From Thamnaconus septentrionalis (lineage: Eukaryota; Chordata; Actinopteri; Tetraodontiformes; Monacanthidae): 64,000 nt of DNA. Within the stretch, counting starts at the first letter, position 1. The number at the start of each line of letters is the position of its first letter. Location of the stretch: contig CM020501.1 in NCBI GenBank assembly GCA_009823395.1, positions 21,691,861 through 21,755,860 of the forward strand, read 5' to 3'. Shown here piece by piece: positions 3,876 through 41,811 of the stretch. Under the pieces are notes generated by a model, which saw only the letters and a list, made by a program, of their open reading frames with translations, ran no database searches and had not been told where the DNA came from. The translations under genes and the position numbers were made by a program.

Positions 3876-5476
3876 ATGAAGTTGGGACTACTGCTGGTCT
3901 TGGCCCTATTGGTCACGGTTCCCAGTCTGTCTGAGGGACTCAGACGCCGTTACCGTCATCGACGATGCACAGCAGCGCGCTTTGCCGCCAGGGCCTACTA
4001 TCAGCTATCATTTGGACAAAGACAAAGGTTCCTGCAAAAGGGTGAGTTCAATAAACCGACATGCTCTCCAGGGGGAGCGACACGGTGGCGCAGTGGTTAG
4101 CGCTGCCGCCTCACAGCAAGAAGGTCGTGGGTTCGATTCCGGGGCCCGGGCCTGGGACCTTTCTGTGTGGAGTTTGCATGTTCTCCCCGTGTCTGCGTGG
4201 GTTCTCTCCAGGTTCTCCGGCTTCCTCCCACACTCCAAAAACATGCATGTCAGGTCAATTGAATATTCTAAATTGTCCATAGGTGTGCATGTGAGTGTGA
4301 ATGGTTGTCTGTCTCTATGTGGCCCTGCGATGAACTGGCGACTTGTCCAGGGTGTCACCCTGCCTTCACCCTAAGACAGCTGGGATAGGCTCCAGCAGAC
4401 CCCCGTCACCCTGAAAAGGAAGAAGCGGGTATAGAAGATGAATGAATGAATGAATGCTCTCCAGGGGCCACCGCCACCGGGGAACAGGAGTAAAAGATTC
4501 CGGCCAATACTGCCAGCCATTCCCTAAAAATTTCTGTCCTCCTAAAACCTCCGATCATGTCCGTTCATGGGTCTTCTTCTCTTCCATCCTCCCCAGTCAA
4601 ATATTGTTTTGGCGCCAAGCCTCCGATGACAACCTCTGCACCAACCACCACTGAAGCGACCACAACACCACTACCACCACCACGATCCACCTTGGCCATC
4701 GCCACTGAACGGCCCACCGCCAGCCTGACCCCGACTGCCATGTCAACAGCTGGAACAGCACCACCACCAGCCAACTCAACTGGACAGACCACCGTCAGCC
4801 AGACCCAAATGGCCATGGCAACAGCCGAAACACCACTACCCAACTCGACTAGACAGACCACTGCCAACCAGACCCCAACTGCTGCATCAACAACTAGAAC
4901 ATCATCATCACCAACACCATCCACCTCGACAGGCACCAGTGAACAGACCCCAGTAGCTACTGGCGGATCAACGCCATCCGGAGGAGATCTGGCAACCTCC
5001 CCTGTTGTAGCAGCAAATGCATCCACGTCTGATAAAAGAAGACGCCGCAGTGCTACTCAGTCTGACGAAAGTGACGGCAACGATAACGAAGAGGAAGAGT
5101 TTGAGGAGGACGAGGACAAAGTCAACATGGAGGATGACATTGAGGGACTCGAGGAAGACTATGACGGTATTGAGGAGGATGAGGAAGACGAGGAGTACAA
5201 AGATGATGTCGCGACAGAGGGTGATGCTGAGGAAAGTGAAGGTGGCCACCACCGAGAGAAACGACATGTCCGTCGCTACAGGTCTGTTCAGAGTTCATCC
5301 CTTTGAAGCTAACTACTAAAACAAACCCATCTTCGTTTTCATACCCGATGTTCAAAGTGCTTAAGAAAATTTTAAGGCTTTAATTTAACTTTGGTCTGGT
5401 TTTTTCATTCAGGAAAATATCCAGAAAATGCCTCAAGCAGTGGAGATGTGTCAAATGGGTCATTCGCCAGTTCTGA
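3876..5476 (+). CDS. Secreted mucin-like cationic-peptide precursor, paralog A (unrecognised family)
   Basis: I do not recognise this gene. Three coding exons fit (3876-4041, 4597-5281, 5413-5476) and give 304 residues. In order: a signal peptide ending SLSEG (about residue 21); a very basic segment with one Cys; a second Cys just after the first intron; a Thr/Pro/Ser-rich mucin-like stretch (about 66-200); RRRR at 203-206; a highly acidic Asp/Glu region; EKR ending at 278; and a 26-residue C-terminal peptide with ten Lys/Arg, no acidic residue and a C-x5-C motif. Exon 3 is too short to stand out as an ORF. It is supported because B and C also have an exon at this place encoding C-x4-R-C-V-K/R, in the same phase. 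The exon 2 donor (AG|GTCTGT) is weak; without splicing the protein would stop at 5306. A role as a secreted defence-type precursor is inference only. Confidence 0.7.
4075..4453 (+). mobile_element. tRNA-derived SINE in the first coding intron of gene A
   Basis: The left end is tRNA-like, with an A-box-type stretch (TGGCGCAGTGGTTAGCG) and a B box (GGTTCGATTCC). The body is the widespread teleost SINE sequence, and the tail is a GAAT repeat. It is flanked by a perfect 14-base target duplication, ATGCTCTCCAGGGG, at 4061-4074 and 4454-4467. It lies wholly inside the intron. The length and intact ends suggest a fairly young insertion. Confidence 0.85.
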
Positions 5477-5482
5477 GAAGCC

Positions 5483-6756
5483 GCTGGACGAGGGGCTCCA
5501 CCTACAAGACAAACTGGAAAGGCGCACCGTCCCCGTCTCATCAAACACTGCCAGCCACGTTCCACTTCTCTTCCTCTCTTAATGATCAATACAGACTGCC
5601 AGTTTGTTGTTAATTTGTACCAAAAGTGCCTTTGACAATAAATTTGACAGAAGTCATTAATTTCTAAAGAGAAAAGAAAGAAAAGTATCCTTGTGTTTCA
5701 GGTCTTTTCTGTTTTCTATTCTATTTTCTGTACTTGTAAAATAAAACAGACTGAACATCTCCGGTGTTGCTGTCTTTCCTCCGCTTGTCTCTCTCCAGTG
5801 CTCCCGGTCCTTTTACCACAGAGGGAGTCGCAGTGCCCGAAGTTTATATTTCAGCTGATGAGAGCTCAAATGAATTGAACTCTTACCTACTTTTTGCCAC
5901 TGGCCTTTTCGAAGTGCAAACCATCATGTTATAATAGTGGGCATGTTTACATGGATCGTAACGTCCGGCAAATTAAACCCATGTGGTTCCAAACATTACG
6001 TTCGAACTGACTCTATCAATCCATTGAAATTTTGGTCTGATTGGAAGAGGTGGTGTCACCTTGTTTTTGTTCACAGTTTTGCAGCACGTCAGCTGCTCGT
6101 TTTCCACGCGGCACATCAATGGCACAACATGGAATGTGTAGGTACCCTTTGCCATTCAAAAAAATAATAATTCTCTCCGGTTGCTTGTAGAGGTTGGTTT
6201 GATGCGTGAATAATGATGGATGTATTCAATGGCTAAGTTCTGACATAATTCCGATTTATTCTATCAAGTTCAAATAGTTCCAAAAAACATTAAAAAAAAA
6301 AAATAAAAAAAACGCCAAACATCGACTTCCTCAATCAATGATTTACAACCAAGGACTGTGTTGGAGCTATTTCTCATTTTTGTAATATTTAATTATTTAG
6401 TTTTGTTTGGCTTGATTATAATACATGTAGTTTGATCATAATGTTTAGCATTATTTGAGTTCATGTGAATACTTATCAATAATTTTATTTTAAAGTTATT
6501 TTAGTTACAAGAAGATTTATATATATGGGTCTGCCAAGCATAGGGGGCAGCACCGGGAAGGGTTATGGTTTTTTACCAGGGCAAAAGAGGCAGCAGCAGC
6601 CATTGTTTGTTTGTTTGCTTGCCAATAGAAGAATAAATCAAGAAAAAATTCAGTTCTTTGCCTGGACAATGGACTCTGTCGTATCAATGGGTAAATTAAT
6701 TCCCTCAGTGCCTTAGTCGCCGTTTGATTTGATTTTGATTAATTTGATTTTGTTTG
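5483..6756. other. Gene A 3' flank and intergenic sequence
   Basis: A polyadenylation signal AATAAA at 5637-5642 follows the gene A stop by about 160 bases, and a second AATAAA lies near 5740. The rest is AT-rich, without a recognisable gene or element. Confidence 0.5.
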
Positions 6757-8144
6757 TTAAGATTGGACATAATGGACAAGATCAATGAGAAGGACAAATG
6801 GCCACTACAAACTGATTTCATATACCTAAAAAAAAAATCCTTTGACAATCCAATGGTACATACGTGTTTGAAACCTGTCTTTGGCATTGCAGTTTCAAAG
6901 AAATGCAAAAATAAACACGCCAAAGCTCAATTAGTCTGCCTGATGACTCTACTCTAGAAATTCCTCAGGCTTTAGCTGCTCAGCGCAACCAGTGACTATA
7001 CGTCACAAACCGCCTAAATCACATTGCACGGCATTTTCGGAACCCACTAATCGATCCAATCACTTTATTCAGCTTCCGCCTGACCAGGACAGTCTGATTC
7101 CTCAGTTTGAAACAACAGAAGTAAATTCACCAAATGTTTCCCCTACGAAAATTTTTCTCTGCTGATGTTTTTTTTCATAAATGAGCGTGGCAAGCTACCT
7201 CTTTTGTCAAAGTAGCTAAATTAAGTTAAAAAAAAAAAAAAAAAAAAAAAAACAAAAAAAGAATTCCCCCCCATCTCGACTTAATCTCAGCGTCACTGTT
7301 ACCTGGCAACTACGAAAGGCAGCTCTCAATTCGCTAGCGCAGACACGCCCGCTTGGCATTGGAACTCATGGTCATGTGACAAACCAGGATGGAAAATTGT
7401 TGCCAACTGTCACTATCTGTTTGTTGAGGGATCTCTCGAAACAAGCAGGGAATTAGATGCACTTGGCCATGGGCGACACAAATTGGAACATTAAACATTT
7501 GCTTCCTCGCCTTTGTCTCACTAGAAAAAAAAACAAATAGTAAATCAGAAATCTAAAAAGCTTTTTCAGATAGGTGTGTTAATATGTCTATTATTCCTTA
7601 TTATTGTTATTATTATTATTATTATTATTATGCACACTCACTTTGCTCATGTGTGCTCATTGCTCATGTTTTCAACATGCAACCCATTTTCCTGGTGCTA
7701 CTCTAAAAGTCCAGCACACCAATTTCACCAAGAGGAGGAAACAGAAACAGAAACAGAAAGGCTCCTCGACTGTCACGGACATCCTCCTTGAATCTGTGAC
7801 TCTCCTGGACAAAGATACAGATGAAAAATCAAGAGCTCGTCTGGTTGCGGGCCAGCTTGCTGTCATCATTGTGTTTGATTTTGCTGAGACGACGTGTGCA
7901 CACAAGGCTAATTACTGAAGAAAAGAGTTGTGCCATTTGTAGGCAGAGGGCTTTAGTTGAAAATCATTAAAATATTTGCCGTTGTGATGTCACTCCCCTG
8001 GAGTTTCTACATGTCTAATCCGTGAGCTCACACGGATGAGCGCAGCCTTTTGTCCAGATGCAGTTGCTTACTTCAAGGATGAAGGCGGTGAGCGGCATAA
8101 GCAGTTGTTGGCGGTGGGAGGAGCCATGGCCTCTGCTCATCAAG

Positions 8145-8264
8145 ATATAAACACTGAGGTTGGCTTCATGCAGACATCGACAGTCCAACGTCCATCGAGA
8201 GGGTGATCTTCTTAAGGAACTTCTTCTTCCTCCTCTGGTGCCATAAAGTCAGAGCCATTTACAG
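8145..8264 (+). promoter_or_regulatory. TATA promoter and non-coding first exon of gene B
   Basis: ATATAAAC at 8145-8152 is followed by a leader that ends at a donor, TTTACAG|GTACTG, at 8264. The next likely acceptor is CCATCCAACAG at about 9770, eleven bases before the gene B ATG. The same arrangement occurs in copy 2. I infer a 5' untranslated exon starting near 8172. Confidence 0.5.
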
Positions 8265-8495
8265 GTACTGGTGACAAGTTTTCTTGCAGGGAGAAAAAAA
8301 ATATAGCATGAGCGCTGGATACATTTTTAATGATTTATCAGTAGAAGGTTTAAATGGTTTGAGCTGAGTGTCTCAAAGTCTGAGGTCGAAAGACTTTTTT
8401 TTAGACGTTTCGCTCCAATGAATGGTTATTATTGTTGTTTTACTTCAAGAGTCATTTTTCCAGATTACTGTAGTTACTATTTACTTTTGAACCAA

Positions 8496-9310
8496 AGTTG
8501 GCCCCTCTTGGGGCCCATCCAGTCCCTTTACCAATGGACTGCGAGTACATGTGGCTAGTAGTAAGTTGTAAATCGTTTCCAGAAGAAGTTGGCCTCTGCC
8601 AGGGCTCCCCTTTGTCACCGGTTCTGTTCATGCTTTAAATGGACAGAATGTCCAGGTGCAGCTGGGTTTGCAGAAGGGGTCTGATTCAATTACCTGAAGT
8701 GCCCATCGCTGACTACGATGTGGTCTTTTTGGCTTCATGAAGCAGGCACCTACAGCTCTCACTGGAGCAGTTCACAACAGAATGTGAAGCAGCTGGGATG
8801 ATGATTAGCACCACCAAATCTGGGGCCATGGTCCTCAGCCAGAAAAGGGTGGAGTGCTCACTCTGGGTCAGCAGGGATGTCCTACCCCAGTGGAGGAGTT
8901 CAAGTCTATCTCAGGGTCTTATTCATGAGCGGGGTTCAAATAGAGCGAGAGATTGGATTGGATTAGAGTCGGCAGTGATGGTGCTCTATGGTCAGAGCTT
9001 TGGGTCATGGATACAATTAGCCAAAATGTGGTGGCCGGTCATCCTCGAGGAGTTTGGAGTAGAGCCACTGCTCCTCCCCATCAAGAGAAAGGAGTTGAGG
9101 TGGGTCAGGTATCTGGTCAGGATGCCCCCTGGACGTCTTACTGGGGAGGTGTTCCAGCCACGTCCAACTGGGAGGAAGCCCCAGGGCTGATGCAGGACAA
9201 GCTATGTAGGCCTGGGAACACCTTGGGGTGCCCCTGAAAGAACTGGTGGAAGTGGCGTGGGAGAGGGCGGTTTGGGTTTCCCTATTAAGGACACTGCCCC
9301 CGCAATGAGG
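8496..9310 (+). mobile_element. Degenerate non-LTR retrotransposon (Rex1/Babar-like), 3' part of reverse transcriptase
   Basis: Translations in shifting frames give a reverse-transcriptase C-terminal region: EVGLCQGSPLSPVLFM, then a relic of the catalytic-loop neighbourhood (DYDVVFLAS), then ECEAAGM and EFGVEPLLLPIKRKELRW. These resemble fish Rex1-type LINEs. Stops and frameshifts make it dead. It is carried in both copies of the block, so it predates the duplication. Confidence 0.75.
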
Positions 9311-9781
9311 TACGAGGCATGAGGTATCGGGTTCTATTTACGTTACTTACTTATTTCATTTACTTTTTAGCATAACATATTTTTCACAGATGCCAGCGGG
9401 ATATGTCCTCTCGACATAGACAAAACCTCCTACTAAAACTGATGCTTTGTTAGATCTTTCTTTGGAAGGGGACAAAAAAAACATGTGTGGTTCCACAGGG
9501 CAGAGCTAACACATTGCTGGGGATGTGGCCAATAGCCTGAGAGAAGCATTGGTGCTGTGGGTTGAACTGGTGAAACAGAAAACTGAAAGAAAGTGTTCTT
9601 CTTTTACCAGTCCACATGTTATCCTTAGCAGTGTTAGCCACAGAGCTAATTCTTGCATTGTAATAGTAGATAAAAATCAAAAAGGACATTTCACTCTGAA
9701 TAAGTGGCAAATAACAACTGAACAATGGCCTGCTCAATGGAAAAAAACCAAAACTTTGTCCATCCAACAGGAGACGTCATC

Positions 9782-11052
9782 ATGAAGTTGGGACTCCTGC
9801 TGCTCTTGACCCTGTTGGTCATGGTTCCCAGCCTGTCTGAGGGACGGAGAGTTAGGGTTTGTTGGAAGGCCAGGTGGGTGGCAAGAAAGTTAGTATACCG
9901 GTTCGGGATGCCTCGTCCTCAAGTAGAAGCTTTTAAGCAGAGGGGTGAGTTCAACAAAACGACAAGCTCTTCAGGAATAAATGATGCTGGCACATATTCC
10001 CGGCTGTACCCTTTTGAAAAATTTCCATCTTCCCCCAACTTGACTTTGTTGCTCCTCCTCTCTTTCACCCTCTCCAGTCCTGGTTAACTGTCTCAACATG
10101 AAGCCCCCCACCACAACCCCGGCACCGACCACCACTACAGCAACTACAACAACACCACCACCACCGCCATCTACCACAAGTGTGGTGCAGACTACCACAC
10201 AACCTACCACCACCACCACAGCAGCGGCCACCACCGCGGCGGCCACCACACCGGCCGGCCACCGCGGCGCCACCACCACTGGCGGCCACCACCACGCGGC
10301 GGCCACCACACCGGCGGCCACCACCGCAGCGGCCACCACAGCGGCAGCCACCACTAATGCGGCCACCACCGCAGCGGCCACCACTAATGCGGCCACCACC
10401 GCAGCAGTAACTGCTCCGTCGATGGCTGCGGCTGCCGTTAACACCACAACTACACACTCGTGTGGCAACAGAAGACGCCGCAGTGACGAGAGCAGCAGCA
10501 ACGAGAGCAGCAGCAACGAGAGCAGCAGCAACGAGAGCAGCAGCAATGAGGCCAACGTCACCGAGAGCAACAACAGCAGCGGAGAGGACGGCCGTGGGGG
10601 GAGCAGTGAGGACAGTGAGGGGAGCAGTGAGGACAGTGAGGGGAGCAGTGGCAACAACAGCGGCGGCAGGTCCAGTCGCAGCGTCAGTGGAAGGGATCGG
10701 GGCAGCGAGGAAATCTGGGAATGGGGATGGGACAACAGCAGCGGCAGGGACAGAAACAGCCGCAGCATCAGCAACAGGGATTGGAGTGAGGGGGACTTGG
10801 ACTGGGACAGGTTCAACCGCAGTGCCAGTCGCAGCAGCAACAGGCGGGAGAAACGACACAGGAGGTTCACTAGGTCTGTGGACTTTGGTTCTTTGGCATC
10901 ATGTTGTAATTACCTGTTACTTGAACGTAATTCACAATTTTAGGTATTATTTCTTTTACTTTTTTTTTTTACTTTGGTCTTTTTCATGTCGTTAAAGGTG
11001 GTGTAAAAAACTGGTCCGGTGTGTCCGGAAGCAGTTCTACCAAAGGCCCTAA
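9782..11052 (+). CDS. Secreted mucin-like cationic-peptide precursor, paralog B (unrecognised family)
   Basis: Three coding exons (9782-9944, 10078-10873, 10998-11052) give 337 residues. The signal peptide is nearly identical to those of A and C. The mature N-terminal segment is strongly basic with one Cys and ends in KQRG. Exon 2 opens VLVNC and continues with Thr-rich repeats (many AAATT units, a His/Gly-containing insert), SCGNRRRRS at about 183-190, four SSSNE repeats, Ser/Glu/Asp runs, and EKR at 312-314. The last 23 residues carry nine Lys/Arg and no acid, with WCKKLVRCVRK at the core. Compared with C, exon 2 has more AAATT and one more SSSNE unit. If the intron after 10873 were retained, the protein would instead end at 10943 with a two-Cys tail. 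The Ser-x-Glu runs could be secretory-kinase phosphorylation sites. Function is unknown. Confidence 0.72.
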
Positions 11053-12192
11053 GCAGCTGTCGGACCAGAGGCGCGACCGGCAGGTTGACACGCAGCGTCT
11101 CGTCTGGTGGATCAGCAACTTTCTCTTCTTCAACTTAATCAATGATGAACAGTCACCTCCCTTCGGTTTGCTGTTGATTTGATGCGGGTTTTTTTTAAAC
11201 AGTATAGATGTTTAAAAAAAATAGCAACTACTCTCTTCTTCACCTGGTCCTTCAGTAAACCTGTCTGAACATCTCTGTGGCTGCTGTGGTTTTCTTGAAC
11301 TTCTCCAGGGTGACATGGCAAACACAATGTTTCCCCAAATTGCTCAGACTTACTTCCCAAATCCATCTGCGGAGTGTTACAAATAGAACTGCCCTTTTAA
11401 TCACATTGCATGGTGCTTCTGTTGCACCGTCAGTGGTAGGTAAATTAAAGAGAGTCGTCTGAGTGATATCTGAGTGATGTCTGCCGCTGCTGTAACCTTC
11501 AGTCACTACATTAAGTACAACCACACCGCTGCTGAAATTAGTCCTTCAGAATGCAATGCGATGCAAGTGTACTTTTTATATCCAACATTTTTCTGTTAAA
11601 ACTTGCGCAAGCCTAGCACCAGAAAATTTTAATGTGCTGGACTAGAAGGGCTGGGTTAAAATTGTGTTGAAACGGTCTCCGCTATTGAATAGCCAGTGGT
11701 GGTAAAAGTAAAAATAAAAGTACAGATATTTGTGTAAAAAAAAAATAAATCTGATACTGATATCTGATAGGTAAAAGTTAGTACAGTAAGAAAGTACAGG
11801 TTCCAAAAATGTACGAAAGTAAAATGTAAAAATGAAAATGTTAATTGAAAAATACGATATTGGATGTTTACTCTTTTAACATTATTTTCTAGATGTTAAT
11901 TTTTCTCTGTACTAAAAAACATACTGAACAGTATCCCCAAATGCAACGTACTCTAAAAGAATCTCCCTCCAGAATATCAAGCAAGAACAACTAGCAAAAG
12001 TAATAAGTGAATTACTTTGAAGAGAATTTGTATGTTTTTAACATTTTCAAACACAGAAGCAAACAGCTCGTTTTTCCAATATAAGGAGTAGAAAATATTG
12101 ATGTTCAGGGAGTAAAAGTAAAAAGTCGCCAGAAAAAGAAAAACTCAAGTAAAGTACAGATACCTGAAAAATCCACTTTAAGTATTTGTACT

Positions 12193-12934
12193 TTGGCTGT
12201 GTCTCAATTCAGGGTCTGCAGCCTTCGAAGCCTGCATTTGAAGGCCAGTTACATCATAACACTGAGCGAAGGCTTGTCCCAATTCATTCATTCATTCATT
12301 CATTCATCTTCTATACCCGCTTATTCCAATTCAGGGTCACGGGGGTCTGCTGGAGCCTATCCCAGCTGTCTTAGGGCGAAGGCAGGGTGACACCCTGGAC
12401 AAGTCGCCAGTTCATCGCAGGGCCACATAGAGACAAACAACCATTCACACTCACATGCACACCTACGGACAATTTAGAATGTTCAATTGACCTCACATGC
12501 ATGTTTTTGGAGTGTGGGAGGAAGACGGAGAACCCGGAGAGAACCCACGCAGACACAGGGAGAACATGCAAACTCCACACAGAAAGGTCCCAGGCCCGGG
12601 CCCCGGAATCGAACCCACGACCTTCTTGCTGTGAGGCGGCAGCGCTAACCACTGCGCCACCGTGTCGCTGTCTCAATTCATTGAAATTCAAAGGATGCTC
12701 CAAATCCACCCTTCAAATGTGTTCTAAATCCTGCACTGCTACTAACCTTCGCGGCCTCCCGTATCACATCTGCAAATCCTGGAAAGTCAGCTGAAATGGT
12801 GGCATCTACTGGCAAAGACACAACATATAAATTTAAGTATTCAAATTTCGGATAAAATATTAAGTGTTTACCGTAGGGTTTTTACTTCTTTGAACATCCA
12901 ACTGGCTGCAGACCCTGAATTGAGACACAGCCAA
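12193..12934. mobile_element. Terminal-inverted-repeat element (MITE-like), copy 1
   Basis: The two ends are a perfect inverted repeat of about 31 bases, starting TTGGCTGTGTCTCAATTC and ending with its reverse complement. There is no coding capacity. The same element, 423 bases long and without the internal SINE, occurs in copy 2. I could not fix the target duplication, so the superfamily is uncertain (hAT-like is my guess). Confidence 0.7.
12289..12668 (-). mobile_element. tRNA-derived SINE inserted into the MITE, copy 1 only
   Basis: This is the same SINE as at 4075-4453 in reverse orientation, with the GAAT tail reading ATTC and the tRNA-like head at the right end. Flanks share CAATTCATT on both sides. 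Copy 2 (near 43036) has the uninterrupted site TTGTCCCAATTCATTGAAAT. The insertion therefore happened after the block duplicated, or was absent from the source allele. Confidence 0.88.
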
Positions 12935-13196
12935 TGTTACTTACCACTTCATTGAATAGCACACTGCTTAACTTGGAAATGAGGTCATCTGTCCTAAATT
13001 CTGATCCACGATGAAACCCTGTCCCAACATTGATGTGATATAATTTAGTCTTATGCACGCACACATGCACGCAACGCAATATTGAAACAACGTGAGAACT
13101 GTTACACCTGAGCTTATTTTCAAAGCCTCTTTTTAAAAGGCGTGGAGGGCGTAAACCAACTAAGAAGAAAGAGGCTCTCCACAGTGGCTGGATCGT

Positions 13197-13433
13197 TTTT
13201 CTTCCTCTGACCTCTTTCAGGGCCCCAGAATGGGCGAGACGCTGTCAGGCTCAGTGTCTTGCATTTGAAGTTAGCGAGGGAGTGGCATTTTCTCTCAGCA
13301 GAACAAAAGGTGTTCCATCTCTGTCACACACACACACATGAACACACACACACACACACAGATATATATATATAGAGAGAGAGACAGGTATCCCATCTCA
13401 GGGCTTTTGGGAGTTGGAGGCAAAGACTTTGAG
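13197..13433 (+). promoter_or_regulatory. Proximal upstream region of the lysozyme-like gene
   Basis: A compound microsatellite, (CA)n-(TA)n-(GA)n at about 13326-13384, lies only 50 bases before the start codon. Its ATATATATA core is the only TATA-like stretch close by, so it may serve as the TATA element. This is inference; no transcription start is visible. Confidence 0.3.
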
Positions 13434-13895
13434 ATGAGGACTCTCCTGCTGGTTCTTCTGGGCTTAGCCGTGGCTGAAGGTCTCCTGTCCAGGTGTGATC
13501 TGAGGAGGCACCTTTGGAAACAGGCCCCACAACAGTTCGACGACAATCTGGTGGCCAAGAGTGAGTAATTCTCACCGATGCACAGCTACGCCACAATCGC
13601 TTGGCTCCTCTTCTGTTGTGATTTGTATTTGAATCACCGCTTAAGTTAAACTATGAATTCGATTGCAGTGAAGTCACAAATGGACAATAACTTAATGTAA
13701 ATGTACATGGAGAAGATAAAAGGGGAGGAAAATGACCCTTTTGTTTGTTTTCAAAATGGTAAGTAAGACAAGCAGATTTCCTAAAAAAAAATGCAATTAT
13801 CATCTGATATCATTAGATCTGAATGTATTTGCCAATCTAACGTCTACAAATACATTTCTATAAGATGATATGTTGTACATGTAGAATATTCACAG

Positions 13896-13969
<74 letters not shown>

Positions 13970-15347
13970 CGCAGTTGAAATGTTGTTCAATGGACCGGTG
14001 CACTGGATATAGTTGAGGGATGAGGATTCAACCTTATTCAGTCTTTTTCAAGTACCTGAATGGCAAGTAGGTCAGCATGGGATGGGAGGCAGGCTTGTTT
14101 AACACAGAAGACTTCAACCAAACAAGATGGAATTCATCTAAACATTAATTTCAAGCAACATGGAATCTGACTGGATTAAACACAAATCTGGGAATATTAC
14201 TTCCTGGAAACAATTCAACCAATATTTGAATAAAGAAACTTACTCAGACACAATCAAATGCATCTAAGAAGTTCAACCAAAATGGATGGATGGGATAGAT
14301 GATAGATGGATGATGGATGGATGTTTGCATCAGTCCCTCTCCATCTCCTGCAGTTGTGTGCAGCTCTGAGTCGATGACGGCCTTCAACAGAAGCGCATTC
14401 AACCTCAGGACCCCCCAGAAAGGAGGTGGGGGTGTCTGGGCGCTCTATGGCGTCCTGCAGCTGCCCAACCGCCTGGCCTGCAGTGACGACACCAGCTCAG
14501 CACCCAACATCTGCCGGCAGAGCTGCAAGAGTATGTTCCACTGTTTTACACATGCACAACACACACACACACACACACACCTATATATATATATATGCAT
14601 TTTTTTTTTTTTTAAATCGGTGTGTGTCTGCAAGTACGAGTACATTGATCTTTCACCTCTTTGTGTTCCTGGTTTATATCATATTGATTTCTTGTCTCAT
14701 GCGCATGAGGAATGTTGATTGGATGCTTTTTTTTTCTGGAGAAAAGAGAACTGGACTTTCTGATTTATTTACCTCATTTATTTTAATGAGCTCATCCTCA
14801 TCAGTTGCTGCTGACATGAGCTAATTCATTCATAAACAAATGAATCTTCAGCCTTAATGCTGCGCAGGATGCAATGGCTGTTTTTGTTGTATGCTTTTAA
14901 CCTTTTAATAATTATACTTGGAAAAAAATACTCAATATATATATGTATATATTTTTTAAATCAAGGATTTATCGATGACGACTTAGAAGACGACATAAAG
15001 TGCATGTGGAAGCTCTTTACTGAACTGGTGTAAGTACTTGTAAAATTTCCCCCCAAAAATTATCCATACATGTTGTTGTGTACAAATATCGTTGAGTGCC
15101 CTGCTGTGACGCGTCTTTGCTGTCCTCCCACAGTGAGAGCGGCTTCAGCGGAGTTTACTTTGAGCAGCTGAAAACCATGTGAGTCTCAGATGTCTGACAG
15201 CCTTTGAATCGTCCTTCAGTAAAAACCCCTCACGGACTCCTTCCCTTCCTCTGCGTGCCTAACAGGAGCGGCCTGGTCTTCCAGGAGGACTGCAAGCTGG
15301 TCGAGGCCACCGCGTACTTCGCCGGATGCTCGGACTCGCAGGGCTGA
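13434..15347 (+). CDS. Alpha-lactalbumin-like C-type lysozyme relative, non-catalytic
   Basis: Five exons (13434-13560, 14354-14530, 14966-15029, 15134-15178, 15266-15347) encode 164 residues: signal peptide MRTLLLVLLGLAVAEG, then a domain with the eight lysozyme cysteines in order. Aligning Cys to Cys with hen lysozyme puts Met at the Glu35 position and Leu at the Asp52 position, so both catalytic residues are gone. The calcium loop of alpha-lactalbumin and calcium-binding lysozymes is present as FIDDDLEDDIKC, with aspartates at the 82/84/87/88 positions. YGVLQL matches the YGILQI core. The family usually has four exons; here the third is split by an extra intron after TELV. Polyadenylation signals lie at 15783 and 15830. 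Likely secreted, binding calcium rather than cutting peptidoglycan. A partner-modulating role like alpha-lactalbumin is speculation. Confidence 0.85.
13895..13967. repeat. (TA)n microsatellite
   Basis: An uninterrupted TA tract in intron 1 of the lysozyme-like gene. Confidence 0.95.
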
Positions 15348-15669
15348 AGCACGAGTCGAGCGCGAGGACGCGGCGGCAGTAGCTGATTTCCTCTTCTTTT
15401 TTTTTTTTTTAAACACACCACAGGTCATCACACGTCATTCATGCTACTCCTGCTGTTATGTCTTTTCGCCACTAGAGGGCCCCGCCCATCGCTTCGCTGT
15501 TATTTGTACCTCTGTTTTTCCGCTGTGCCCTCGATCCTCACGTGAACAACTTCACACTTAATGCAGATTTTTTCGATGTTTAGTGAATGTCCAACACCGC
15601 TGACAGGTGGTGGTGGTGGTGATGATGATGTGATTGAGGTGATGATGTTGATGTTGATGATAAGGATAG

Positions 15670-15704
<35 letters not shown>

Positions 15705-15713
15705 TGATCTTGG

Positions 15714-15757
<44 letters not shown>

Positions 15758-16765: not shown

Positions 16766-19700
16766 TCAGACAAAGCGGCCGCTGGACCTGAGCTCTGGAC
16801 ACAGCTTGGCCTCCAGGTCCTCAATCTTGACCGACTCGGCGTCCCTGGAGCTGGAGAGGCTGGCGGCACGCGTGATCTTGGTGAGCGTCTCCTCATAGGG
16901 CGGCGGCAGGTAGACCATGACGAAGACGCCGTCCGAGCCGTCTGAGCTGGTGCTGGTGTGGCGCTCGGCGTTCCTGGTGAGCGAGGAGAGGAACTCAGCG
17001 CTGCCCTCGCCATCCTGCAGGTCAAGGGCGATGATGTCGGCCAGCCTCAGCTTGTTGCGGGCGCAGCAGTACCAGCAGGAGCGGCCACCACAGCGGCAGG
17101 CAACGGCAGCCAGTAGCACCACCAGCAGGACGCAAGCCACCGGCAACACCACATAGACCAGTAGCTCCGCCCATTTCCTGTCGTCGGCCAGCTCCAGGCC
17201 GTCGCTGCTGCCGTCGGCCTGTGGACAAAACCACGTTAGCGGATCAGCTGGAGGCTTTAGATCAGATTTAGCATTCAGGAAAAATCAACCAAACACAATT
17301 CACGGGTTCTCCAGTTTACTCCCACAGTCCAAAAACATGCATGTGAGGTGAATTGGAAACTCAAAATTGACCGTAGGTGTGTATGTGAGTGCAAATGGTT
17401 GTTTGTCCTGGTGACTTGTCCGGGGTGTCACCTTCACCCTGTGACAGCTGGGAGAGGCTCAAGCAGACCCAAAGACCAAAGATGGATGGATACTGCCGCT
17501 GATTTTTCAAGTGGCCACTCATGGTATTGCAAGAAAACAAAAAAACACATGGGGCCCAAATATCATTTTTCACTCTAAGCCGCAATACAACAATGAACCC
17601 CTGTAAAACGACAGGACTCCTCTGACCTAAACCTTGGTAATAAATCTTATGAACTTTCAATCTTTCTAAAAAATATATTATAAAGGCCAGAAAATCCACA
17701 GACAAGACTTTTATTGTATGACTTCAAAGCTTTCTACTTGCTGTGTCTTGGCTTTTTCTTTTTGGCTGATACAATCTGATGCATCACGTTAGTTACAGAG
17801 GCACGATGGGAAATGACACTACTGCTACGTGCTCTATGGGGTCACGTAATGCAGAGGTTAATTCAAGATGTTGGACTTTTTAGGCATCATGCGCCAGCAG
17901 AGCTTCTATCAACACAAAAGTTATGAGCAGAAAAAGGTTGAAGTTTAACTTTTCTGAATGTTCCGTGTGTGTTTAATTTTCCTCCCACCTTCCTTGTCTC
18001 TGGTACACTAACAATAACGACGACTACATCCTTCATGCACCTCCTCACATCTGTTTGGAGGATCAAACGTGTGACGGCCGGCGGGGAAAATGTGTCAGAG
18101 GAAATCAGCTGGCGGCGACGGGTGATGGTGGCGGTGGGGGAAAAAAATGTAAAAATCTGCGTCGTTGCCCAGAACGACTTACAAGTCTGCATTTGATCCA
18201 GACAAGAAGGTCGATCCAGCAACATGTGGCGCCGCTGCTCAGCATCAGCTCACTGGCCCAAATTCTTGCCGTCTCATCATTTCTTCTTTTTTTTCTCCCC
18301 CCTTGCTGACAATTAGTTAATGCTGCCCAGACGGGGACATGTTTTAATTGTCAGCCTGTTCTGACCTCAGCGGGTTCTCTCCTCACACCGCTGGGGCTTC
18401 ACTCGGACGGTTTGAGTGTCACATGTAGCATCTGCCACTACAGTTCTACTTGACTTTTGCAAAATGAAAAGAAAAAGATTAAAAAATAGAATTTTACTTA
18501 ATTGCAGAGTTTATAACTTTTACATACTTTATTTACAACTTTATATAGTAAAATTCCATTGGTGCTACAACAAATGTGGGCGTAAACAGGAAAACACCAA
18601 TGTGCAGCATTGTGGCTGCGTTATGTGGAACAGCTCTGACACGTTGGCTCTAAGCCGCTTGACTCAAACAAAAATACTGTGAGAGTTTTAGCGGCAAGAT
18701 CGCTAAGTGACGCGCTCAAGTGATAAAATTAGAAATGTGGCTTCCTCGTAGTTGAGACTGAAATAATCCCAGTCTGCTCCAAATTTTTTCCAGAGCTCCG
18801 GAGGACAACTACAAGAAGAGCCATTGGATGAAGCTCAGACATCTCCTCAGAGCTTTGACGTCAGCACTGTTAAAACATGTCCAGACTCTGATCACTTCCT
18901 ATATCTGTGTATCCTTTATCTTAAATGTGCCTCCAAAGATAAAGAAACTTTCTAGGAATAAAAGATAACGACAACCAACCATGCAGGTGGAACCAGTCAC
19001 AACAACACCAACTGTAGCCGACAACAGAGAAAACCAGAAGACAAATACAGGAAGTGACTGAGAGCCTAGCTGCTGCTAAAGAGATTAGCGTGGACACTGC
19101 CGTAGCGATACTTTGTATTTGCTTCTGTTTTTTTAAATCAGAATTGGACACACTTTTTTATATGTTGATAAAGAAATAAAGAACAAGAGTGGTGGGTTTT
19201 TTTCTTGGTGGAAACATTTTTTCCTTCAGCAGCTGCCCTCTGTCCAAACAAATACACTCAACAGAAACAGGAAATGGCATCATGCTGCACTAGTTCAACC
19301 AAAAAGCCAACAACACCACTCTCTGCTGCATGTGTAGAAAACTACAAGTACTTACAGCTAGCCATCCCCTTCCGTGTCATTATGTGTAGCTGTGTATCAG
19401 TGGTGGTTTTGGTGAAACAAAAGTAGTGAAAACTTTTCCAATTCAAAAGCACCGCCAATTTCTTCTTAAATGAATGAAAGCAACAGAGAGTGGGAGTTTA
19501 CGACAATCAACAGTACGGAAGTGGCTTTGCTGTAGCTGTCAAATGTAAATAAAAGTGGGAGTGGTTTAAAGCCAAAAGAGACTTATGTTATACACCACTC
19601 TCTCTACTGGGTGTTTTGGTTCTGTGCTGCACATCCACCGAAACAAAGTGGCCCCCTGTAGGTTGGCGGCAGTAGTGGAGCTCCGGAGCAGGTGGAACTG

Positions 19701-20385: not shown

Positions 20386-20656
20386 GGTGCTCAGGTGATC
20401 AGGTGCTCAGGTGCTGCAGATCAACTCCCAGCGTCCACCACTTGTTGTCGTCTGGCGGAGTGAAGAGAGCCGAGGGCAAGGAGGGGATGGTCGCTTGGCT
20501 CGGAGGCGGGGCGCAGTGGGTGAGATGGGCGGGATGCGAGGTCCTGATGGGCGGAGCCAAAGGCTAAGCATCTGCTCACATGCACACACATGCAGTGGAG
20601 CGACAGGATTCAGGCCAATGATGGGATTTAACATCGGCCTATATCATACTCTGTTG

Positions 20657-23189: not shown

Positions 23190-23995
23190 TCTATGTTGAG
23201 GTGGATTTTTTCCAAAATTATACAGTAGAAATGGACATGTGAGGTATCATTGTAAAGCCTAGGAGCTCTACTACCACAATCAGTTGACATATTTTATGGG
23301 AAATCATTTTTGGCCTTTTTGGGGGGACTCCAATGTTGACAACTTTGCCATTGACATCACAGTATTTTTCAGTTTTTCAGGTGGATTATTTCCAAAGTTA
23401 TACAGTAGAAATGGACACGTGAGGTATCATTGTAAAGCCTGGGAGCTCTACTTTTTATAATCAGTTGACATATTTCACAGGAAATCATTTTTGGCCTTTT
23501 TGGGGGACTCAAAGTTGACAACTTTGCCATTGACATGATATTTTTCAGTCATTATTTCCAAAGTTATACAGTAGAACTGGACATGTGAGGTGTCATTGTA
23601 AAGCATGGGAGCTCTACTGTCACAATCAGTTGACATATTTCACGGGAAATCTTTTTTGGCCTTTTGGGGGGACTACCATGATGTCAATGGCAAAGTTGTC
23701 AACTTTGGAGTCCCCCAAAAAGGTCAGAAATGATTTCCAGTGAAATATGTCAACTGATTATAAAAGTAGAGCTCCCATGCTTTACAATGACACCTCACGT
23801 GTCCATTTCTACTGTATAGTTTTTGAAATAATCCACCTGAAAAACTGAAAAATACCGTGATGTCAATGGCAAAGTTGTCAACTTTGGAGTCCCCTAAAAA
23901 GGACCAAAATGATTTCCTGTGAAATATGTCAACTGAATATAAAAGTAGAGCTCCCATGCTTTACAATGATACCTCACATGTCCATTTCTACACAG
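23190..23995. repeat. Foldback array: three direct and two inverted ~175-base units
   Basis: A unit containing TACAGTAGAAATGGACA, a GGAGCTCTACT segment and TTGACAACTTTGCCATTGAC occurs three times in direct orientation (starting near 23197, 23378 and 23550). It then occurs twice inverted (about 23669-23856 and 23857-23991), with the turn near 23669. A transcript could fold into a long imperfect hairpin. I cannot assign it to a named element. Confidence 0.85.
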
Positions 23996-24758: not shown

Positions 24759-30185
<5,427 letters not shown>

Positions 30186-31470
30186 GGAGGGAGGGCTCCG
30201 TCGCCACTGCCAGAAGCCTTCCCCTGGTTCCTGTGGCCTGGAAGGAAGCTTTCTGGACACTAGACCTCCAGGAACTTGACGGAGGAATAAAGAAGAGTCA
30301 GCTGATGGACTGAAGGCTGCCTGAATTTCTTTTCTTTTTTTTAATTTTTCATTGTAAACGTTTGTGTAACTGCACATTTTCTTTGCATCGTCTTTGTTGG
30401 TCTTTAATGTGTGGAGAAGCTGCTGGCAGCTCGGTTTACCGCCAGTGCAGAAACCACCAGCGTGTCGTTTAAGAAAAAAAAAAAAAAAAGAAGACGATGA
30501 TTCACCTTCAGGTTCATCCAGTCTCGTCAGTTTCCAAAGCCAGAGGTTCAAACATCGACTCAACGGGGATTTGAAGATTTTAAGGATTTTGAGGGTTTTG
30601 TATTTCTAAATCTATTTATATTATGGAATTTTTTTCCAACTTCAGAGCGTATACTATGTGCTGTAAAAAATGTTTTCACCTCAATACATCTGGACTGTGC
30701 ACTGCTACGGCCAGGGAACTTGAAGAACCGGCTCGGCGTAACGCTGCTGGAGGAAAACAACGTGGAATGTTTTCTTTGTTTTAATTTTTTTTTTTTTATA
30801 AGTGCCAAAGTTCACATGATTGTAATAAAGGCTGTGTAAACCGACTCCGCTGTTCACTCTGAGTGGAACTATTCATCTGAGGAAATTCTGCCTGTGTTTA
30901 AAACGACGAGAAGCATGTGAGAATTAACCCGTTCTGCTGTACAACCATAGAGGTTTCAAACCTCAGGAGCATCCTCTGGCGGAAAATGTAGTTGTAAAAC
31001 CAAGACGATCTTCATACACACACACACACACACCTTCACACACAGCAAATACTTTAATGGAACTGTGAGAGAAGATAAATGTTTTCTTTACAAAAATCTG
31101 TCTTTTCTTTTTTTCACTTTTACAGGAAAAACTGTTGTTTTGTTCTACATATAGTTCAAGTGGCTGCTTTGATATCAGAAGGGAAAAAGTTTCTTTCCAA
31201 ATCCATGATGGAAAATAATCCTGCAGGTAATCCCCTTGGGCATGTCTCAACTGATGTCGGGTTGACTTCAGCTGATACCGGTTGGCCTCCAGCGGGAAGG
31301 AAGTGAGGGGAAAAAAAATAAACAAATGCCGCACTTCACCAGTAAATCCAGAGGAGAACCAACTCCCAGCCAGCAAAGCGGGCACTGCCACACGGTGAAG
31401 GTCCAAGTCTATTCGGGCGTGGCTCGACTCAGAGGCCGACCTCTGACCAGTGGGAGGGCCACGGCGGCCA
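30186..31470. other. ifngr1 3' untranslated region and spacer to convergent ltv1
   Basis: AATAAA signals at 30286 and 30824 mark likely short and long ifngr1 3' ends. The rest holds no recognised gene. The convergent ltv1 3' end lies to the right. Confidence 0.6.
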
Positions 31471-37176
<5,706 letters not shown>

Positions 37177-37628
37177 CCTGCGTCCCGTTCTCTGGCGGCT
37201 CTGCGATAGATTTCAAAGCATCCACAGAAAACACGGAAACTACGGTCGCAGAAAACAAACTAGACCCGAGAACAGAGGCTGCTGTTGACCCACGTTGGAC
37301 ACCCCTCCACCATGCTGCTCCTGACACAACCGGAAGGAACCAAATCCCGAGGAGAAAAAAAGTAACGAGGGGGTTTGATACGACGTTAACACGCCCAAAT
37401 ATGATGTTGGAATGGAATAATTCATAAATCAAATGTGCTTTTAAGTGATAAAGTTAAAAAAAAAAAACAAAAAAAAACAAAAACAATATCTGCATATGTC
37501 AACGCGATGTAATCCAAACAATTTTACACATTTTGTTGTTGGTATAGTCCAAACGCGAGACGGGACTTCCTGGAGAGTATCGCCTCCTGCTGGCCCGGAA
37601 GTGCCTCGTGTACTCATAGCTGTAAACA
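37177..37628. promoter_or_regulatory. ltv1 promoter region
   Basis: This is the stretch from the ltv1 start codon to the left edge of the duplicated block. No TATA box is evident at the ltv1 start, as expected for a housekeeping gene. I infer that the promoter lies here from position alone. Confidence 0.35.
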
Positions 37629-38466
37629 TTAAGTTTGGACATAATGGACAAAATTAATGAGAAAGACAAATGGCCACTACAAACTGATTTCATATACCTA
37701 AAAAAAAAATCATTTCACGATCCAATGGTACATACGTGTTTGAAATCTGTCTTTGGCATTGCAGTTTCAAAGAAATGCAAAAATAAACAAGCCAAAACTC
37801 AATTAGTCTGCCTGATGACTCTACTCTAGAAATTCCTCAGGCTTTAGCTGCTCAGCGCAACCAGTGACTATACGTCACAAACCGCCTAAATCACATTGCA
37901 CGGCATTTTCGGAACCCACTAATCGATCCAATCACTTTATTCAGCTTCTGCCTGACCAGGACAGTCTGATTCCTCAGTTTGAAACAACAGAAGTAAATTC
38001 ACCAAATGTTTCCCCTACGAAAATTTTTCTCTGCTGATGTTTTTTTTTCATAAATGACCGTGGCAAGCTACCTCTTTTGTCAAAGTAGCTAAATTAAGTT
38101 AAAAAAAACAAAAAAAAAAAAAAAAGAATCCCCCCCCCCCCATCTCGACTTAATCTCAGCGTCACTGTTACCTGGCAACTACGAAAGGCAGCTCTCAATT
38201 CGCTAGCGCAGACACGCCCGCTTGGCATTGGAACTCATGGTCATGTGACAAACCAGGATGGAAAATTGTTGCCAACTGTCACTATCTGTTTGTTGAGGGA
38301 TCTCTCAAAACAAGCAGGGAATTAGATGCACTTGGCCATGGGCGACACAAATTGGAACATTAAACATTTGCTTCCTCGCCTTTGTCTCATTAGAAAAAAA
38401 AACAAATAGTAAATCAGAAATCTAAAAAGCTTTTTCAGATAGGTGTGTTAATATGTCTATTATTCC

Positions 38467-38527
<61 letters not shown>

Positions 38528-39047
38528 GCACACTCACTTTGCTCATGTGTGCTCATTGCTCATGTTTCCAACATGCAACCCATTTTCCTGGTGCTACTCT
38601 AAAAGTCCAGCACACCAATTTCACCAAGAGGAGGAAACAGAAACAGAAACAGAAACAGAAAGGCTCCTCGACTGTCACGGACATCCTCCTTGAATCTGTG
38701 ACTCTCCTGGACAAAGATACAGATGAAAAAACAAGAGCTCGTCTGGTTGCGGGCCAGCTTGCTGTCATCTTTGTGTTTGATTTTGCTGAGACGACGTGTG
38801 CACACAAGGCTAATTACTGAATAAAAAAGGGTTGTGCCATTTGTAGGCAGAGGGCTTTAGTTGAAAATCATTAAAATATTTGCCGTTGTGATGTCACTCC
38901 CCCGGAGTTTCTACATGTCTAATCCATGAGCTCACACGAATGAGCGCAGCCTTTTGTCCAGATGCAGTTGCTTACTTCAAGGATGAAGGCGGTGAGCGGC
39001 ATAAGCAGTTGTAGGGGTGGGAGGAGCCATGGCCTCTGCTCATCAAG

Positions 39048-39167
39048 ATATAAACACTGAGGTTGGCTTCATGCAGACATCGACAGTCCAACGTCCATCG
39101 AGAGGGTGATCTTCTTAAGGAACTTCTTCTTCCTCCTCTGGTGCCATAAAGTCAGAGCCATTTACAG
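39048..39167 (+). promoter_or_regulatory. TATA promoter and non-coding first exon of gene C
   Basis: It has the same TATAAAC element and donor (TTTACAG|GTACTG, ending at 39167) as gene B, so the duplicate kept its own promoter and may be expressed. Confidence 0.5.
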
Positions 39168-39395
39168 GTACTGGTGACAAGTTTTCTTGCAGGGACAAAA
39201 AAATATAGCATGAGCGCTGGATACATTTTTAATGATTTATCAGTAGAAGGTTTAAATGGTTTGAGCTGAGTGTCTCAAAGTCTGAGGTCGAAAGACTTTT
39301 TTAGACGTTTCGCTCCAATGAATGGTTATTATTGTTGTTTTACTTCAAGAGTCATTTTTCCAGATTACTGTAGTTACTATTTACTTTTGAACCAA

Positions 39396-40210
39396 AGTTG
39401 GCCCCTCTTGGGGCCCATCCAGTCCCTTTACCAATGGACTGCGAGTACATGTGGCTAGTAGTAAGTTGTAAATCGTTTCCAGAAGAAGTTGGCCTCTGCC
39501 AGGGCCCCTTTGTCACCGGTTCTGTTCATGCTTTAAATGGACAGAATGTCCAGGTGCAGCTGGGTTTGCAGAAGGGGTCTGATTCAATTACCTGAAGTGC
39601 CCATCGCTGACTACGATGTGGTCTTTTTGGCTTCATGAAGCAGGCACCTACAGCTCTCACTGGAGCAGTTCACAACAGAATGTGAAGCAGCTGGGATGAT
39701 GATTAGCACCACCAAATCTGGGGCCATGGTCCTCAGCCAGAAAAGGGTGGAGTGCTCACTCTGGGTCAGCAGGGATGTCCTACCCCAGTGGAGGAGTTCA
39801 AGTCTATCTCAGGGTCTTATTCATGAGCGGGGTTCAAATAGAGCGAGAGATTGGATTGGATTAGAGTCGGCAGTGATGGTGCTCTATGGTCAGAGCTTTG
39901 GGTCATGGATACAATTAGCCAAAATGTGGTGGCCGGTCATCCTCGAGGAGTTTGGAGTAGAGCCACTGCTCCTCCCCATCAAGAGAAAGGAGTTGAGGTG
40001 GGTCAGGTATCTGGTCAGGATGCCTCCTGGACGTCTTACTGGGGAGGTGTTCCAGCCACGTCCAACTGGGAGGAAGCCCCAGGGCTGATGCAGGACAAGC
40101 TATGTAGGCCTGGGAACACCTTGGGGTGCCCCTGAAAGAACTGGTGGAAGTGGCGTGGGAGAGGGCGGTTTGGGTTTCCCTATTAAGGACACTGCCCCCG
40201 CAATGAGGTA
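39396..40210 (+). mobile_element. Degenerate Rex1/Babar-like LINE, copy 2
   Basis: This is the copy-2 counterpart of the relic at 8496-9310, nearly identical, with the same interrupting stops. Confidence 0.75.
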
Positions 40211-40677
40211 CGAGGCATGAGGTATCGGGTTCTATTTACGTTACTTACTTATTTCATTTACTTTTTAGCATAACATATTTTTCACAGATGCCAGCGGGAT
40301 ATGTCCTCTCGACATAGACAAAAACCTCCTACTAAAACTGATGCTTTGTTAGATCTTTCTTTGGAAGGGGACAAAAAAAACATGTGTGGTTCCACAGGGC
40401 AGAGCTAACACATTGCTGGGGATGTGGCCAATAGCCTGAGAGAAGCATTGGTGCTGTGGGTTGAACTGGTGAAACAGAAAACTGAAAGAAAGTGTTCTCT
40501 ATTACCAGTCCACATGTTATCCTTAGCAGTGTTAGCCACAGAGCTAATTCTTGCATTGTAATAGTAGATAAAAATCAAAAAGGACATTTCACTCTGAATA
40601 AGTGGCAAATAACAACTGAACAATGGCCTGCTCAATGGAAAAAACAAAACTTTGTCCATCCAACAGGAGACGTCATC

Positions 40678-41811
40678 ATGAAGTTGGGACTCCTGCTGCT
40701 CTTGACCCTGTTGGTCATGGTTCCCAGCCTGTCTGAGGGACAGCGAGTTCAGTTTTGTGGAGAGGCCAGGAGGGAGGTATCCAATTTAATAAGCAAGCTC
40801 AAGTTTCGTCCTGAAGCAGCAGCTTTTGTGCAGAGGGGTGAGTTCAACAAAACGACAAGCTCTTCAGGAATAAATGATGCTGGCACATATTCCCGGCTGT
40901 TCCCTTTTGAAAAATTTCCGTCTTCCCCCAACTTGACTTTGTTGCTCCTCCTCTCTTTCACCCTCTCCAGTCCTGGTTAACTGTCTCAACATGAAGCCCC
41001 CCACCACAACCCCGGCACCGACCACCACTAGAGCAACTACAACAACACCACCACCACCGCTATCTACCACAACTGTGGTGCAAACTACCACACAACCTAC
41101 CACCACCACCACAGCAGCGGCCACCACTGCAGCAGCCACCACCGCAGCAGCCACCACCGCAGCGGCCACCACCGCAGCAGTAACTGCTCCGTCGACGGCG
41201 GCGGCTGCCGTTAACACCACAACTACAGACTCGTGTGGCAAAAGAAGACGCCGCAGTGATGAGAGCAGCAGCAACGAGAGCAGCAGCAACGAGAGCAGCA
41301 GCAACGAGGCCAACGTCACCGAAAGCAACAACAGCAGCGGAGAGGACGGCCGTGGGGGGAGCAGTGAGGACAGTGAGGGGAGCAGTGAGGACAGTGAGGG
41401 GAGCAGTGGCAACAACAGCGGCGGCAGGTCCAGTCGCAGCGTCAGTGGAAGGGATCGGGGCAGCGAGGAAATCTGGGAATGGGGATGGGACAACAGCAGC
41501 GGCAGGGACAGAAACAGCCGCAGCATCAGCAACAGGGATTGGAGTGAGGGGGACTTGGACTGGGACAGGTTCAACCGCAGTGCCAGTCGCAGCAGCAACA
41601 GGCGGGAGAAACGACACAGGAGGTTCACTAGGTCTGTGGACTTTGGTTCTTTGGCATCATGTTGTAATTACCTGTTACTTGAACGTAATTCACAATTTTA
41701 GGTATTATTTCTTTTACTTTTTTTTTTTTACTTTGGTCTTTTTCATGTCATTAAAGGTGGTGTGAACAACTGGTCCGGTGTGTCCGGAAGCAGTTCTACC
41801 AAAGGCCCTAA
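40678..41811 (+). CDS. Secreted mucin-like cationic-peptide precursor, paralog C (unrecognised family)
   Basis: Three coding exons (40678-40837, 40971-41631, 41757-41811) give 291 residues. The signal peptide is identical to that of B. The following segment (about 22-53, one Cys, ending VQRG) differs from B at most positions, is far less basic and is one residue shorter. Exon 2 again opens VLVNC. It has a shorter AAATT array, SCGKRRRRS at about 142-149, three SSSNE units and the same acidic region. After EKR at 268 come 23 residues with WCEQLVRCVRK at the core; B has CKK where C has CEQ, so charge is lower. Introns and third exon are otherwise almost identical to those of B. Intact frames in all three exons argue that the duplicate is functional. 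Function is unknown. Confidence 0.72.

Follow-up and report, generated by a model that had tools for sequence, protein, structure and literature searches.

A three-gene family of predicted two-site secreted precursors in Thamnaconus septentrionalis, with a first exon probably related to that of teleost lysozyme-like genes

Cationic defence peptides of fishes, such as the piscidins and hepcidins, are liberated from secreted precursors, and basic cleavage sites placed around an acidic or connecting region typify the granins and the two-chain prohormones of the insulin and relaxin type. C-type lysozymes and alpha-lactalbumins (PF00062) are characterized by a beta domain that bears the catalytic residues and by eight cysteines. 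In a stretch of 64,000 nucleotides from Thamnaconus septentrionalis (contig CM020501.1, positions 21,691,861 to 21,755,860; termed here the window, in whose numbering all coordinates are given unless stated otherwise), we analyzed three genes, A, B and C, whose sequences indicate that they form a genuine family and encode precursors of an unusual build. The reading we favor, with a confidence that falls slightly short of even, is that they represent a young fish gene family which arose on a lysozyme-like first exon and would make furin-cut cationic defence peptides. Judged by titles and the opening lines of abstracts, the literature searches made yielded no paper on a precursor family of this kind.

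The gene models, rebuilt from the sequence, confirmed the common three-exon plan that had been proposed in a first-pass annotation of the window: all 6 introns are of the GT-AG type, intron 1 is in phase 1 and intron 2 in phase 2 in every gene, and frames and splice sites are undamaged in A, B and C. In each protein a signal peptide, assigned by eye as 21 residues, is followed by a segment with one cysteine, the phase-1 intron, a second cysteine 3–4 residues further on, a Thr-rich region, an RRRR site, an acidic spacer, an REKR site, the phase-2 intron and finally a basic peptide with a C-x5-C pattern. Both of the cleavage sites claimed earlier are thus present, the second of them, previously given as just Lys-Arg, being a complete furin-type motif R-E-K-R followed by H. 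The four cysteines common to the three mature proteins, two near each end, were likewise recovered; these are all that A has, whereas B and C carry an additional fifth one (SCGN/SCGK) immediately before RRRR. The Thr-rich region spans 83–140 residues with 41–46% S+T and 11–14% P, which places it within the mucin-like range of composition. In A, B and C, respectively, the net charge amounts to +12, +10 and +4 in the N-terminal segment, −34, −13 and −12 in the spacer and +10, +9 and +6 in the C-terminal peptide, with the acidity of the spacer stemming from Glu/Asp runs in A and from Ser-x-Glu/Asp repeats in B and C. The letters diverge, yet the charge plan and both cleavage motifs persist, which is consistent with the earlier proposal that basic peptides would be separated by a neutralizing acidic spacer. 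Within the Thr/Ala array of B, part of positions 10240-10330 reads GHRGATTTGGHHH, as if frame-shifted and then restored, which could be real or an assembly slip.

B and C are the products of a recent duplication, their shared block of about 6 kb differing at 52 of 4488 aligned non-coding positions in introns and flanking DNA. The family of three members therefore stands as three intact genes but comprises only two old lineages, and because B and C belong to one duplicated block they provide no independent evidence for the shared plan. The DNA from the promoter to the start of exon 2 of B was found at no fewer than three places of the 474 megabase (Mb) genome, namely B, C and A, and bases 10640-11300 (the end of exon 2, exon 3 and the 3' flank of B) at no fewer than two, namely B and C, both counts being lower bounds. 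In the DNA alignment of A with B, identity reached 90% over 77 bases in the signal region, 85% over 39 where intron 1 begins, and 73% over 102 and 68% over 137 in two stretches of the promoter; further matches lie at the beginning of the Thr-rich region (79% over 75) and at RRRR (85% over 27). These short conserved islands, together with the intact frames and splice sites and the in-frame indels (all 3 coding indels that separate B from C have lengths divisible by three, as against 3 of 21 in non-coding DNA), amount to more than chance would produce.

The part of exon 1 between the signal peptide and intron 1 is a sharply bounded hypervariable region between B and C. Here the two genes disagree at 30 of 97 aligned bases (p 4e-34 in a binomial test with the non-coding rate as reference), with 26.5 replacement and 3.5 synonymous changes by count, while the signal peptide is identical and a stretch of 108 codons covering the spacer and the end of exon 2 shows a single synonymous change and 0 replacement changes. 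The same segment is covered by none of the 16 alignment rows between A and B, though both of its flanks align. When B, C and the related proteins P0001, P0002, P0004 and P0005 (see below) were compared, the segment was more divergent than the conceptually translated intron in 14 of 15 pairs, which are non-independent. A sharp difference of the N-terminal segment between copies is as expected for a host-defence peptide. The B/C pattern would be explained either by replacements driven after the duplication or by older types that were kept while their surroundings were homogenized.

With a profile built solely from the first exons of A, B and C, three proteins were retrieved. P0001 (E 8e-20) and P0002 (3.5e-12) plainly belong to the same family and have the same intron start; the third is the lysozyme-like P0003 (E 0.066), in which a signal peptide similar to that of A is followed by RIVSKCELKRKL. 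A CEL motif near the start is a mark of lysozymes. First exons of the same family were found in other sequence sets in P0001, P0002, P0004 and P0005. A second profile, which also includes P0001-P0003, returned 19 proteins, comprising 4 of the A/B/C family and 15 with SKCEL or SRCEL behind a similar signal peptide. Two of the latter, both from Poecilia, are called Lysozyme by UniRef (A0A3P9QA10 of Poecilia reticulata and A0A3B3WIS8 of P. mexicana) and match the Pfam family Lys slightly below the cut-off (E 7e-6 and 8.6e-6); a similar exon 1 is also seen in Sparus aurata A0A671TMP3, annotated as 'uncharacterized'. The signal peptides of A and B share 11–17 of 21 residues with those of 4 of the 15 lysozyme-like proteins, with all 8 pairs at the 1e-5 floor of the shuffle p, against 0.01–0.12 in 8 pairs with control 21-residue segments from the neighboring lysozyme-family gene D and from the genome's ordinary lysozyme, controls that are rough in that both of these signals are shorter than the 21 residues cut. 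In a wider comparison of the signals of A, B and C with 9 of the 15, all 27 pairs lay at the floor of 5000 shuffles.

Behind its first cysteine, exon 1 continues for 26 residues in 8 of the 10 lysozyme-like sequences examined (out of the 15 matches) and likewise in C and P0005, for 27 in B, P0001 and P0002 and for 24 in A; ordinary lysozyme has 22 and D has 21. For the relatives, both the intron phase and the exon ends are deduced from read-through proteins, not from DNA. The read-through of intron 1, GEFNK, is identical in A, B, C and the lysozyme-like P0009, although its GE is what a common donor sequence would give. With the lysozyme-like P0007 as query, the whole genome gave four matches, of which B ranked first (E 0.006), C second (0.007) and A fourth (0.23), the third being a place with two stops. 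Together these features argue fairly well for a shared descent of exon 1 of A/B/C with a teleost lysozyme-like subfamily. The statement of the first-pass annotation that no named family could be recognized accordingly holds in that A and B match no Pfam family above its cut-off, but not for exon 1; and the homologs sought in other sequence sets were found for exon 1, while exons 2 and 3 gave no convincing match. As a separate observation, G000:C1:8399022-8399411 (L039) matches the Poecilia lysozyme P0018 weakly (E 0.2, 27% identity, two stops) and could be a relic or a chance match.

On our favored reading, the first exon of a lysozyme-like gene, with its signal, one cysteine and phase-1 intron, would have been the starting point, to which a new middle grown by repeats was added, providing the Thr-rich mucin-like stalk, the acidic spacer and the two furin-type sites, while the last exon encodes the basic C-x5-C peptide. 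If the genes are expressed and the precursor secreted, furin-type proteases would cut at RRRR and REKR in the secretory pathway and thereby separate off the charge-neutralizing spacer. What remains would be an N-terminal chain, probably O-glycosylated, and the basic peptide of the C-terminus, with disulfides perhaps linking the two. Between copies, the N-terminal segment would diversify in a host-defence role, antimicrobial or in immune recognition. The elements of a cationic antimicrobial precursor, i.e. signal, protease site, anionic pro-part and cationic peptide, are all present in the sequence, and in B and C the C-terminal peptide exceeds its shuffles in amphipathicity (p 0.001 and 0.003, respectively). 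Lysozyme itself provides a precedent for non-enzymatic killing: the review PMC8698798 describes its N-terminal helix as bactericidal and cites mice with a muramidase-deficient lysozyme, from which the authors of that work concluded that lysozyme kills independently of muramidase activity; titles in the reference list of PMC1933452 point to non-catalytic killing by lysozyme fragments.

A number of results weigh against this reading, and several of them bear on the alternatives to it. With regard to the hypervariable segment, the values for B and C (dN 0.486, dS 0.18) give an excess that is without significance on its own (p 0.065), and synonymous changes, too, exceed the non-coding rate (p 0.002). 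Between A and B, dS is saturated in the segment with a dN of 0.86, as opposed to 0.19 and 0.07 for dS and dN in the signal, and between A and C it is again saturated (dN 1.04), so that neither pair supports dN > dS. Nor does the alignment of A with B extend to exon 3, intron 2, the spacer or the greater part of intron 1; the contrast seen in the segment of this pair thus holds for its immediate neighbors only. The one exception among the 15 pairs is C/P0004, where 1 of 32 positions differs in the segment against 2 of 26 in the intron.

These data can tentatively be explained if the exon-1 segments are old types, either alleles or paralogs, and the surroundings of B and C were homogenized by gene conversion, in which case selection may merely keep the types apart. 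The synonymous changes above the non-coding rate and the A-B saturation confined to the segment as against the signal would both follow, and P0004 has the type of C although its intron start is farther from that of C than is the one of B (2 versus 1 of 26). Against it stands the count of replacements between B and C, which far outnumber the synonymous changes. The saturation of dS between A and B, along with the extent of the unalignable remainder of these genes, weighs somewhat against the defence-family reading and in favor of old types. In principle, the bounded nature of the segment would allow selection and gene conversion to be separated by population data.

With regard to the lysozyme connection, the mature halves of exon 1 of the A/B/C group and of the lysozyme-like proteins show no profile similarity (hhalign E 0.18), the inclusion of P0003 helped the second profile toward lysozyme-like matches, and a search of the genome with the Lys family listed no part of A, B, C or D; nor did Pfam Lys match the whole of A or B or the N-terminal 65 aa of A and 64 aa of C. 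Given that neither the mature part of exon 1 nor the last exon shows similarity, the link is carried by the signal, the exon length, the cysteine and the intron start. A larger claim, which we regard as doubtful, is that A/B/C descend from a whole lysozyme-like gene, of which the catalytic middle was replaced while the chains are held by the old lysozyme disulfides. In this case cysteines 1 and 2 would correspond to C6 and C30 of lysozyme, those of the last exon to C115/C127 and the phase-2 intron to its intron 3. The first and last intron phases do agree with those of ordinary lysozyme (1, 1, 2, read by hand in one of three such genes on another contig) and of D (1, 1, 2, 2, by hand), the second cysteine sits 3–4 residues past the phase-1 codon compared with 2 in lysozyme, and 14 residues follow the first cysteine of the last exon in A, equal to the number in lysozyme. 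However, all 12 pairs of A/B/C last exons with those of lysozyme or D were without similarity (shuffle p 0.19–0.92), the cysteine spacing is C-x5-C and not C-x11-C, and two phases would coincide by chance in about 1/9 of cases if phases are equally common; lacking sequence similarity in the last exons, whole-gene descent stays a rival. Less likely still appears the full scenario in which, in a fish lineage, a lysozyme-like gene came to encode a cationic effector of two chains without enzymatic activity, with a mucin stalk and a self-neutralizing acidic spacer between furin-type sites in place of the catalytic middle, its ends joined by the old lysozyme disulfides and its N-terminal chain diversifying under selection in a birth-and-death defence family.

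With regard to defence, the amphipathicity of the C-terminal peptide of A is not clearly above that of shuffles (p 0.09), and the basic N-terminal segment described earlier is found in A and B but is weakly so in C. An amphipathic N-terminal helix was considered, but the values for A, B and C (p 0.29–0.79, or 0.10–0.79 with P0001 included) lend it no support. No TATA box was found in the 276–282 bases upstream of the three start codons, the transcription start not having been located, and no poly-A signal in the 349 and 340 bases downstream of B and C, respectively, with two being present behind A. We consider it improbable that the proteins are two-chain secreted signals of the hormone or cytokine type, joined by disulfides once the spacer is removed: the acidic spacer between two furin-type sites and the four common cysteines, two near each end, would suit such a role, but between B and C it is the N-terminal segment that changes most, which is unusual for a hormone, and no family matched above cut-off. 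We likewise give little credence to a reproductive or pheromone-like protein, for instance of the egg or sperm coat or seminal fluid, varying under sexual conflict, as might be suggested by the variable segment, the mucin-like stalk and the few copies in one cluster. That the genes are decaying or untranscribed copies and the pattern a relic is very improbable, since the frame-shifted look of GHRGATTTGGHHH in B and the lack of a poly-A signal near B and C are set against undamaged reading frames in all three genes, intact splice sites at all six introns, coding indels that keep the frame in 3 of 3 cases, the 108-codon stretch without replacement change and the presence of relatives in other sequence sets.

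Further searches added no match to the family. Hits of A to Pfam and NCBIfam and of B to Pfam, all below cut-off, fell mostly on Thr-rich or acidic stretches and were set aside, as was the single match of A in the PDB (E 0.51), which is not meaningful. The first 68 residues of B as query gave no match, probably as a consequence of the search admitting only proteins of similar overall length. Rfam returned nothing at gathering scores, viral contigs no relative of P0007, and tblastn with family and lysozyme queries nothing convincing in the 140 kb flanks (best E 0.086).

Beyond what had been noted before, the analysis thus brought out the hypervariable segment, the recent B/C duplication, the exon-1 relatives and a lysozyme-family neighbor. 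The latter, D, adjoins B at a distance of 2.4 kb and matches Pfam Lys (E 2.3e-14) and lysozymes of the PDB (E 1.4e-12). In the PDB alignment it has L and M at what we take to be the usual catalytic positions Asp52 and Glu35, and with both changed it looks non-catalytic; it retains a calcium-loop-like FIDDDLEDDIKC. One SINE-like repeat, parts of which recur elsewhere in the genome, is present at 4076-4456 in intron 1 of A and, inverted, at 12289-12669 behind B (96.9% identical); a 394-base gap at its position in the C block suggests that it was inserted after the duplication or lost in C. At 23196-23991, repeats of about 108-316 bases with 87-94% identity, some direct and some inverted, are clustered locally. 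Elsewhere in the window, LTV1, calpain (two exons) and WD40 exons score above the Pfam cut-off (34360-34851, 50175-50516, 52634-52993 and 57032-57919 on the minus strand), the WD40 gene being TAF5L by eye, and the window ends with NUP133 by eye (63432-63710, plus strand), the exon tested having no Pfam match. Class II cytokine-receptor-like exons at 27379-30182 (plus strand; Pfam Tissue_fac E 8.3e-4 on one exon, below cut-off) belong to an IFNGR1-like gene by eye, and a 172 aa open frame at 16769-17284 (minus strand) has a hydrophobic transmembrane-like stretch and a PPPY motif (FAM163 E 0.044, below cut-off).

Table 1. Positions of the predicted genes and their features in the window
Feature	Position	Strand	Basis or remark
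Gene A	exons 3876-4041, 4597-5281, 5413-5476	+	predicted secreted precursor of 304 aa, rebuilt from sequence
A, exon-1 segment after signal (basic, one Cys)	3939..4041	+	DNA alignment
A, RRRR, first furin-type site	5037..5048	+	sequence
A, REKR, second furin-type site	5253..5264	+	sequence
A, exon 3, C-terminal basic peptide KISRKCLKQWRCVKWVIRQF (C-x5-C)	5413..5476	+	gene model
Duplicated block with B	6757-13197	+	self-comparison
Gene B	exons 9782-9944, 10078-10873, 10998-11052	+	predicted secreted precursor of 337 aa, rebuilt from sequence
B, hypervariable exon-1 segment after signal	9845..9944	+	comparison with C
B, Thr/Ala-rich array, 15-base unit (five residues), 12.5 copies	10213..10399	+	repeat analysis
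B, RRRR site	10470..10481	+	sequence
B, REKR site	10845..10856	+	sequence
B, exon 3, C-terminal amphipathic peptide (C-x5-C)	10998..11052	+	gene model
Gene D, lysozyme/alpha-lactalbumin family	13434-13560, 14354-14530, 14966-15029, 15134-15178, 15266-15347	+	exons by hand
Duplicated block with C	37629-43632	+	self-comparison
Gene C	exons 40678-40837, 40971-41631, 41757-41811	+	predicted secreted precursor of 291 aa, rebuilt from sequence
C, hypervariable exon-1 segment after signal	40741..40837	+	comparison with B
C, RRRR site	41243..41254	+	sequence
C, REKR site	41603..41614	+	sequence
C, exon 3, C-terminal peptide, two replacement changes versus B (KK to EQ)	41757..41811	+	gene model

Should the defence-family reading be true, A/B/C would illustrate how a new family of secreted proteins can be put together on a lysozyme-like first exon, a case to set beside the antifreeze glycoproteins with their trypsinogen-related ancestry, and one in which related gene types and a neighbor of the lysozyme family survive for comparison. 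The genes also supply candidate cationic peptides from a fish. Among known systems, the teleost lysozyme-like subfamily resembles A/B/C in the signal (up to 17 of 21 residues), exon-1 length, first cysteine and start of intron 1. It differs in that A/B/C have an unalignable mature segment and no lysozyme domain detected behind exon 1, where mucin-like and acidic regions and furin-type sites are found instead; with this Thr-rich and acidic middle and just 4 or 5 mature cysteines they stand outside the lysozyme build. To granins and insulin/relaxin prohormones A/B/C are similar in the layout of cleavage sites, but their cysteine patterns are different. With piscidins and hepcidins, the latter reported by the title of PMC3325200 to be under positive selection, they have in common a predicted cationic peptide from a secreted precursor and the duplication of genes, and differ from them, by description, in a far longer precursor in which a Thr-rich stalk and a pair of furin-type sites accompany two basic chains. 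Finally, according to PMC10256766, notothenioid antifreeze glycoprotein genes consist of a signal exon and an exon of Thr/Ala-rich repeats; they arose from a family of secreted proteases, with a trypsinogen-like ancestor, and lie in a cluster with it. By analogy only, A/B/C are like these in having a Thr/Ala-rich repeat behind a signal exon near enzyme-family relatives, and unlike them in their five-residue unit of 15 bases in place of Thr-Ala-Ala, their furin-type sites and their cysteine-bearing basic ends.

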